Assembly: GCF_019635455.1 (NCBI RefSeq)
Contig: NZ_JAHBZJ010000012.1
Span: 1 to 64,000, forward strand
Length of the DNA: 64,000 nucleotides
Source of the DNA: Sphingomonas sp.
Lineage (GTDB): Bacteria; Pseudomonadota; Alphaproteobacteria; Sphingomonadales; Sphingomonadaceae
Reading direction: 5' to 3'
Part shown: positions 1 to 6,570 of the stretch, piece after piece
How positions within the stretch are numbered: the first letter of the stretch is position 1
How the letters are laid out: every line of letters starts with the position of its first letter
Made by a program: the position numbers and the translations under genes
Notes under the pieces: model-generated
Seen by the model: the letters and a program-made list of their open reading frames with translations, nothing else
Databases searched by the model: none
Told to the model about the DNA's origin: nothing

Positions 1-761
1 CGCGACGCTTCCCAGAGCAGCCAGTTCTTGATCAGGTCAGCCGGCAGGAGTGGGGTGCCGTGCGCGTTCAACGTTTCGAAGATCGCTTGCGGCTCGTCGC
101 TGGGGTCAAGATCCAGGACGATGAGCTTGAGATAGTCCGCCAGCGCGGCGGCAAACCGCTGAGCACGATGCCCGGCCCTAGCAACGTCCGTGTCAGGCCG
201 GAGATAAGCCAGCGCCGCCGAGCGGAAGAACCGATAGGCTTCCGCCATTCTGGTCGTCTGACCCGTCGGGCCGGACGCCGCGTCGCTGTCGAGAACGGCG
301 CGGAAGGGATCCCGGTCTTCGTTGGTCGGCCAGACCTTATATCTCTCCTGGGGTTCATAGGCGGTGTTGGCAGTCAGCATGCCCAACCGCTGCTTCGCGA
401 AGGCGACCATACCAGCGTCATCGCCATCGATGCCCGCCTCAACTTCGGCGAGAGCGTGCTCGGACGCCTTCAGCAGGATCTGCAGTGTCGTCAGACGTTG
501 CTGCCCGTCGATCACCTCACGCCGAGGCAGACTGCCCGTCGCGTTGGGCGTCTGCTCGAGAACGATTGTCCCCAGGAAGTGGCTTGCGACCGCTTCATCA
601 CCTTGACGTGCCTCAAGCCGGTCGAGAAGGCCGATCACATCTTCCCACAGCGGCTCCCATTGCTCCTCTTTGGACCAGACATAGGGGCGCTGGAACAGCG
701 GCACTGTATGCCTGGTCTGAGCGCCGAAGATCTGAGCGATCGGCATGTAGGTCGGCTGCAT
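1..761 (-). CDS. DUF262 domain protein, GmrS-like (partial, C-terminus outside window)
   Basis: The minus strand is open from an ATG at 761 to the window edge, so 253 codons are visible and the stop lies outside. The translation shows the DUF262 signature: PLFQRPYVW at residues 21-29, the ParB-like block VIDGQQRLTTLQ at about 83-94, and FETLNAHGTPLLPADLIKN at about 228-246. DUF262 is the GmrS-type nucleotide-dependent half of GmrSD type IV restriction systems, and many members carry a C-terminal DUF1524 HNH nuclease that would fall beyond the edge here. A G-rich RBS (GGGGAAC) precedes the ATG. It is the first gene of an accessory stretch beside gyrB, which suggests phage defence cargo. The family call is firm; the restriction role is inferred. 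Confidence 0.85.
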   Translation of the reverse strand, partial: MQPTYMPIAQIFGAQTRHTVPLFQRPYVWSKEEQWEPLWEDVIGLLDRLEARQGDEAVASHFLGTIVLEQTPNATGSLPRREVIDGQQRLTTLQILLKASEHALAEVEAGIDGDDAGMVAFAKQRLGMLTANTAYEPQERYKVWPTNEDRDPFRAVLDSDAASGPTGQTTRMAEAYRFFRSAALAYLRPDTDVARAGHRAQRFAAALADYLKLIVLDLDPSDEPQAIFETLNAHGTPLLPADLIKNWLLWEAS

Positions 762-906
762 ATGTTCCCCCCACCGACACATGCAATCGATCTGCAGGGC
801 CGATCATCGACTTATGCGGCAGGGGGAGCGGCGAGCAAGATTGTTTTGATCCGCTTCGCAGCCATCGAGCGAACAGTTATCGGACCGAAGCCGCAACCGA
901 CGTCTT

Positions 907-1569: not shown

Positions 1570-2063
1570 ATGTTCGATGACAACGGCAAGCGTCAGATTC
1601 AGGCGTTATCGCAGCCATGCGCGCCATCGCCGACCCCCTCCGGGCGATGATGACCCAGCAGACGGCGCCGGTGGTGATCACCGGCGGCGCCTCGGTCAAC
1701 CTGCTGAAGCTCGGTTCGATCGCGAAGGCTGCCTCCGACCAGTTCGACGCCGACCACGTCCACCTGGTGTTCGAGCCCGGACGCGAGGCGGAAGGCCCCA
1801 AGCGGATCCTCGTGGGGATGCACCGCGACCGGATCGTCCACGTCAAGACCGACTGCTCGGTCTGGGCCGATCCACGCCGCCGACCGTTCCTGCTCGCGCG
1901 CCAGGTTAGCGAGATGGGGCTGACGAGTTTCGATCCGGACGGGATGGACTACCGGCCGGGCCGACCGAAGACGAACGTGGCCAAGGGCCTCGCGCGCGGC
2001 GCGGAGTTGCTACGCCGGCTCGCCGCAAACGACCTGGAGGAGCCGGTAGCTGCCGCTGGCTGA
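1570..2063 (+). pseudogene. Frameshifted hypothetical gene
   Basis: A strong AAGGAG sits 7 bases before an ATG at 1570, but that frame (MFDDNGKRQIQALS) closes quickly. The frame that is one base out carries the long coherent product from about 1611 to the stop at 2063 (AAMRAIADPLRAMMTQQTAP and onward, about 150 residues). A single missing base near 1608 (TTATC instead of TTAATC) would join them as QIQALIAAMRAIADPL. The gene is therefore either freshly inactivated or contains a sequencing error. An internal restart at ATG 1617 is possible but has no RBS. The product has no motif I recognise; it is polar and looks cytoplasmic. Confidence 0.55.
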
Positions 2064-2299: not shown

Positions 2300-2362
2300 T
2301 ATCCACGCAATTGCCGTTTTTAGACACGCAATCACTTACTGTAGACACGCAATCGGTTTATT
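2300..2362. repeat. Three imperfect 21-bp tandem repeats 14 bp beyond the gyrB stop codon
   Basis: Units start at 2300, 2321 and 2342. The shared core is TAGACACGCAATC, exact in units 2 and 3 (2321-2333 and 2342-2354) and TATCCACGCAATT in unit 1. The exact 21-bp, roughly two-turn spacing suggests an array bound by a protein on one face of DNA. On the minus strand each exact unit reads GATTGCGTGTCTA. Multiple 19-22 bp sites of this kind are found at the ends of Tn7/Tn5053-type transposons (TnsB/TniA sites), in integrase arm sites and as plasmid iterons. The array marks the border between the accessory stretch and gyrB. Confidence 0.75.
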
Positions 2363-2375
2363 TCAGAATCCGCGA

Positions 2376-6570
<4,195 letters not shown>

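Follow-up and report, generated by a model that had tools for sequence, protein, structure and literature searches.

Three imperfect repeats directly follow the gyrB stop codon in a Sphingomonas contig, and the question raised by this locus is what kind of sequence they form beside an essential gene. The window is the whole stretch analysed here, 64,000 nucleotides at positions 1 to 64,000 of the home contig (NZ_JAHBZJ010000012.1, assembly GCF_019635455.1; C4). The first-pass annotation proposed that the repeats are the right end of a Tn7- or Tn5053-type transposon that targets gyrB, with integrase arm sites or iterons as alternatives. The reading reached here, with a probability of roughly 0.93, is that these repeats form the target-proximal end of a large transposon of Tn7-like type, inserted in one orientation 4–9 bp after the gyrB stop codon.

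Repeat array and element terminus

The array is composed of three 13-bp cores on the minus strand at a spacing of exactly 21 bp, each a putative TnsB-binding unit. Units 1 (2342–2354) and 2 (2321–2333) are exact copies of GATTGCGTGTCTA, and unit 3 (2300–2312) reads AATTGCGTGGATA. This triple has 33 of 39 possible pairwise identities, the highest score for 21-bp spacing anywhere in the window; at the remaining periods between 17 and 25 the maximum is 31 (period 18, a low-complexity GCC repeat). The repeats reported beside the gyrB stop are thus confirmed and their cores located exactly. The reported distance of 14 bp holds when counted from position 2362, and the nearest 13-bp core lies 21 bp from the stop (2376–2378, minus strand). 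No further copy of the exact 13-mer, allowing one mismatch, occurs in the 3.15-Mb home genome, and a DNA search of the end sequence against plasmid and phage DNA gave no significant match. The target gene gyrB is encoded on the minus strand by an ORF at 2376–4991, with a true start probably nearer 4901, and its product exhibits 89–90% amino acid identity to those of the genomes G015 and G260.

The window starts at the first base of its contig, so there is no sequence to its left and the support for the transposon is drawn from related genomes. The exact double unit is found in one other of the 295 genomes in the genus, the Sphingomonas metagenome-assembled genome G260 (NZ_JAIXHL010000011.1), where it also directly follows gyrB. 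Positions 1–2367 of the window differ from G260 (C11:130339–132705) by two mismatches in 2,367 bp, while beyond position 2367 the gyrB-side flanks are 86% identical; in G260 the near-identity stops 8–9 bp after the gyrB stop. Because identity switches at a single base, position 2367 is taken as the element terminus, and positions 1–2367 as the gyrB-proximal part of an element that runs on past the contig start. The terminal sequence (2346–2367, minus strand) reads 5'-TCTGAAATAAACCGATTGCGTG from the gyrB side, its first base being 2367. It is delimited by the G260 junction pair, where a 5-bp duplication is present, and by alignment to the empty site of genome G304, whose sequence agrees with the gyrB flank of the window as far as the terminus before entering rlpA.

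The adjoining 2368–2372 (ATCCG on the plus strand, CGGAT on the gyrB strand) is a predicted 5-bp target-site duplication, as its position matches that of the duplicated AGAAT of G260; its second copy is not assembled in the home genome. This terminus and candidate duplication had been overlooked by the first-pass annotation. On the plus strand the five bases beside the terminus are ATCCG in the window and ATTCT in G260. An assembly chimera in the window was considered unlikely because the junction falls exactly at the terminus and these adjacent five bases differ between the two genomes.

A complete relative at gyrB

Both ends of the element are visible in G260, 98.9 kb apart. Its array is composed of three units at the gyrB end and four inverted units at the distal end, three of them exact cores (of two core types) and one with a mismatch; GATTGCGTGGATA units are among those at the distal end. 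Both ends start with TCTGRAMTAAACCGATTGCGTG when one ambiguous base is allowed, and AGAAT lies just outside each of them as a perfect 5-bp target duplication. When the two flanks are joined with one AGAAT removed, they align almost perfectly to the gyrB–rlpA intergenic region of G015, which is the matching unoccupied site. A near-identical element is present in two species.

Genes for a TnsA-like protein, TnsB, TnsC and two TniQ-domain proteins lie beside the distal end in G260, all oriented the same way. The TnsC carries a TniB domain (E=2.9e-21) with two TniQ domains encoded alongside, and the TnsB profile matches solved Tn7-family TnsB structures with E-values down to 6e-76. In a scan of GTDB contigs with the G260 TnsB the sole match was G260 itself. 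The proposal of a transposon end that targets gyrB is supported by this element at its own gyrB. Extension to the left, carried out on G260, reaches inverted 21-bp units together with tnsABC and two tniQ genes, and comparison of gyrB flanks reveals insertion polymorphism, with an empty site in G015 and a duplication in G260. The outcomes named beforehand as refuting the proposal are thus not what was found, since polymorphism, a recombinase and a matching distal end all exist. The element's recombination genes had been expected to lie outside the window; this is borne out at the distal end in G260, though tns genes of this element were not found in the home assembly.

Cargo and state of the home copy

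The first gene of the window (3–782, minus strand) encodes a GmrSD/DUF262 type IV restriction-like defence protein (PF03235, GmrSD_N, E=3.8e-37). The DUF262 assignment of the first-pass annotation is upheld by this Pfam match, while the broken look of the gene is an artefact of the contig start: it appears shortened because the contig begins at window position 1. The G260 copy is intact at 630 amino acids and matches PADLOC Orf5 and mREase_IV. A cargo ORF of 148 amino acids with no assigned function (1617–2063, plus strand) is open in G260 too. The G260 cargo also features genes for a dnaE2-type translesion polymerase, SbcD-like proteins and a cbb3 oxidase, along with kinases and a helicase that resemble defence systems. 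An MreB-like actin homologue is also encoded as transposon cargo (G260 C11:85652–86656; L040:10652–11656).

Within the home assembly, searches for the distal end (exact unit, at most one mismatch) and for the rest of the GmrSD gene, this type of TnsB and TniQ1 found no copy elsewhere. Either truncation or incomplete assembly of the home copy may explain this, and we infer that it is, or formerly was, complete. That the end is the solo, immobile remnant of a once complete element is a serious but rather unlikely alternative. It would account for an assembly with neither a distal end nor tns genes of this type, and the locus is possibly rearranged, given a second gyrB with rlpA on contig C9. However, the two mismatches to the complete G260 copy point to a very recent arrival, and with a contig that begins within the element the missing parts may simply be unassembled.

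The second gyrB (C9:30083–31297; L002:1510–2724) encodes a protein with about 67% identity to that of the window gene. It adjoins rlpA, where relatives keep their gyrB, and the contig ends within it; this divergent copy beside rlpA is the reason that the home locus may be rearranged. The home genome also contains a different Tn7-like tnsA-tnsB-tnsC-tniQ operon (C19:165747–171714; L050:5747–11714), with possible end repeats of its own, GTTCGTWAGCGTGT, past the tniQ stop.

Recurrent insertion at gyrB

Further elements at gyrB were reached by TnsB and TniQ searches followed by reading of the gyrB flanks. At least eight Sphingomonadaceae gyrB flanks carry such ends, with the terminus 4–9 bp after the stop codon, and a period of 21 ranks best or second-best in each gyrB-adjacent array. 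The duplication is perfect in four elements: that of G260 and those of G065 (31 kb, CCGTC/CCGTC), G395, a member of a different genus in the family (35 kb, GTGGA/GTGGA), and G070 (27 kb, GCGAA/GCGAA). Two others match at four of five positions, G216 (64 kb, TCGTC/TCGCC) and the decayed G266 element (28 kb, GCTGC/ACTGC). The G070 element is decayed as well, and the TniQ matches of these two are partial only. A single clear element end is present at gyrB in G012. Wherever it is visible, the orientation is constant, with the tns genes at the gyrB-distal end and in the same direction.

One gyrB site, in G215, has mixed ends (C8:496108 and 623456; L118, L096): the end at gyrB is of the G216 type and the distal one of the G065 type, and CTGAC flanks both on the outside. 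This arrangement suggests stacked insertions, in which a second element inserted three bases into the first and a loss or deletion followed.

The tns operon and the choice of gyrB

The genes tnsA-tnsB-tnsC with TniQ genes are encoded in G260, G216, G215 and G065, and tnsB-tnsC-tniQ1-tniQ2 in G395. TnsA was identified by its Pfam N-terminal domain in G065 and G215 and by phmmer homologues in G260 and G216. Divergent from and preceding tnsA in G260 is an accessory ORF of 483 amino acids (L055:9820–11271) that maps to the TnsB integrase core with 93% probability in profile comparison; it keeps the first catalytic aspartate and lacks the other two of the three catalytic residues. Homologues of this ORF are located at L095:12208–13374, L096:5145–6344 and L097:4614–5813. 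It is 71–77% identical among the G216, G215 and G065 elements, and since G216 and G065 carry different TnsB lineages it seems to be separately exchanged. AlphaFold modelled both the accessory ORF and TniQ1 with low confidence (mean pLDDT 54 and 57, respectively). A Foldseek search with the TniQ1 model returned nothing at E≤0.001, and its best weak matches were TniQ proteins of CRISPR-associated transposons (CAST). Plasmid searches identified no close TniQ1 or accessory ORF.

Based on family assignments, the parts would act as follows. The 21-bp units are putative TnsB transposase sites, three close-packed on the gyrB side and four spaced at the far end. TnsA and TnsB would excise the element and TnsC would bridge it to the target. 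The conserved gyrB 3' end is most probably the binding site of TniQ1, a TniQ/TnsD-type protein. Insertion would then be directed just outside gyrB, so that the essential gene stays intact and the 5-bp duplication is formed.

TniQ1 and TniQ2 are both encoded in five of five complete tns operons at gyrB (G260, G216, G215, G065 and G395). The TnsB relatives in G259, G281, G304 and G152 have a single TniQ2-like gene with neither TniQ1 nor the accessory ORF, and the gyrB flanks of these four genomes contain no element end. Across TnsB lineages, identity is 33–37% for TniQ1 versus 19–27% for TniQ2. When 398 genomes across the order were scanned, the only TniQ1 added was that of G395. G305 encodes a TniQ1-like gene; its gyrB is on a separate contig, where no clear 21-bp array is seen. 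From this association in a few elements, TniQ1 is the likely selector of gyrB.

It is improbable that gyrB is picked instead by TniQ2 or by the ORF divergent from tnsA, even though both are present in the Sphingomonas gyrB elements and an inactivated recombinase acts as selector in Tn6022 (TnsF; PMC10293859). The accessory ORF is absent from the gyrB-inserted G395 element and is therefore dispensable for this site, and TniQ2-like proteins also occur in TnsB relatives without an element end at gyrB. The distribution and conservation of TniQ1, together with the missing accessory ORF in G395, make TniQ1 the best reading of the selector; TniQ2 would serve a second route, for example to plasmids. 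The TnsB relatives with a single TniQ2-like gene are directly followed by a conserved ORF, which is found at several loci (L090:12436–13300, L091:6057–6900, L092:4500–5400, L093:4100–4991) and by eye resembles a TOTE-type archaeo-eukaryotic primase.

Classification of the element

The G260 element features arrays of about 20-bp TnsB-type sites inverted at its two ends, of which the home copy shows one. The 5-bp duplications, tnsABC with TniQ/TnsD-type genes, and oriented insertion at a fixed distance from one gene are likewise those of a Tn7-like transposon. Of the two types first proposed, the Tn7-like one is retained due to the presence of TnsA and the Tn5053-like one is not. A Tn5053/Tn402-type element (TniABQR, replicative with a resolvase) would share the 19–22 bp end arrays, the 5-bp duplications and relatives of TniB and TniQ, but is characterised by the absence of TnsA and by a TniR resolvase with a res site. 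Here, a gene for a TnsA-like endonuclease lies upstream of tnsB and the TnsB profile matches Tn7-family structures, which makes this class very unlikely. Arm-type sites of a tyrosine integrase, marking the attR of an ICE or genomic island with the gyrB 3' end as att, are also short direct repeats, and integrative elements often end beside conserved genes, yet this reading is scarcely credible. The complete G260 relative has a terminal tnsABC-tniQ cluster, arrays that are inverted between its two ends and a 5-bp duplication; its two junctions have no identical core of integrase length in common and consist only of that duplication and tns-type ends. The junction pairs of G260, G065, G395 and G070 contradict an integrase origin. 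Arm sites and iterons, the alternatives named in the first-pass annotation, are unsupported and were dropped after the distal end and the tns genes had come to light.

A broader reading is offered tentatively, at somewhat less than even odds: a CRISPR-free Tn7-like group in Sphingomonadaceae, with at least three TnsB lineages, homes to the gyrB 3' end via a dedicated TniQ that has been retained in, or swapped between, these lineages. Most of the Sphingomonas members would also encode a further protein with a possible selector role, descended from a TnsB-like integrase that is no longer catalytic. No CRISPR-like repeats were found in the G260, G216, G065, G395 and G215 stretches, nor cas genes within the tns operon. 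With this target, gyrB, among the most conserved essential genes, joins the few homing sites listed for Tn7. The insertions also explain why a variable region in which sphingomonads gather defence systems and metabolic cargo is recurrent. A candidate selector protein is named that could steer insertion to a safe site beside gyrB, and paired elements with and without TniQ1 allow direct tests of how TniQ reads a target gene.

Comparison with known Tn7-family elements

Tn7 itself inserts about 25 bp after the stop codon of its target gene, whereas insertion here is 4–9 bp after the stop. The two share TnsA, TnsB, TnsC and a TniQ-domain protein (TnsABC with TnsD at glmS in Tn7), a 5-bp duplication, a close-packed array of TnsB sites on the target side with spaced sites at the other end, and insertion just past the stop codon of an essential gene. 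The elements described here differ from Tn7 in their target, gyrB rather than glmS, in the tns operon at the target-distal end, in the two TniQ proteins and in that no TnsE was recognised. According to PMC11406308, Tn7 and every one of its relatives characteristically produce a 5-bp duplication, and the attachment sites of this family include glmS, parE, comM, yhiN and tRNA sites among others. No gyrB attachment site was found in literature searches of material outside subscription papers and supplementary tables, and gyrB is absent from the main texts of PMC11406308, PMC10293859 and PMC8649781.

Tn5053/Tn402 elements resemble the present ones in their 19–22 bp end arrays and TniB/TniQ relatives, but here TnsA is present and the target is chromosomal gyrB rather than plasmid res sites. 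Tn6022/AbaR (comM, TniQ with TnsF) shares the TnsABC core and an inactivated recombinase-like accessory protein beside TniQ. There, however, comM is interrupted, and TnsF is a relative of tyrosine recombinases, whereas the accessory ORF here is similar to the TnsB integrase core, and one gyrB element lacks it. Closest among known systems is Tn7017, a type I-F3 CAST whose parE site is targeted by TniQ (PMC11406308, Table 1); it also belongs to the Tn7 family, encodes two TniQ proteins and homes to the gene of a type II topoisomerase B subunit, parE being a paralogue of gyrB. The elements described here differ from Tn7017 in targeting gyrB itself, in belonging to a different host group, and in having no CRISPR-like array in the stretches scanned and no cas genes in the tns operon.
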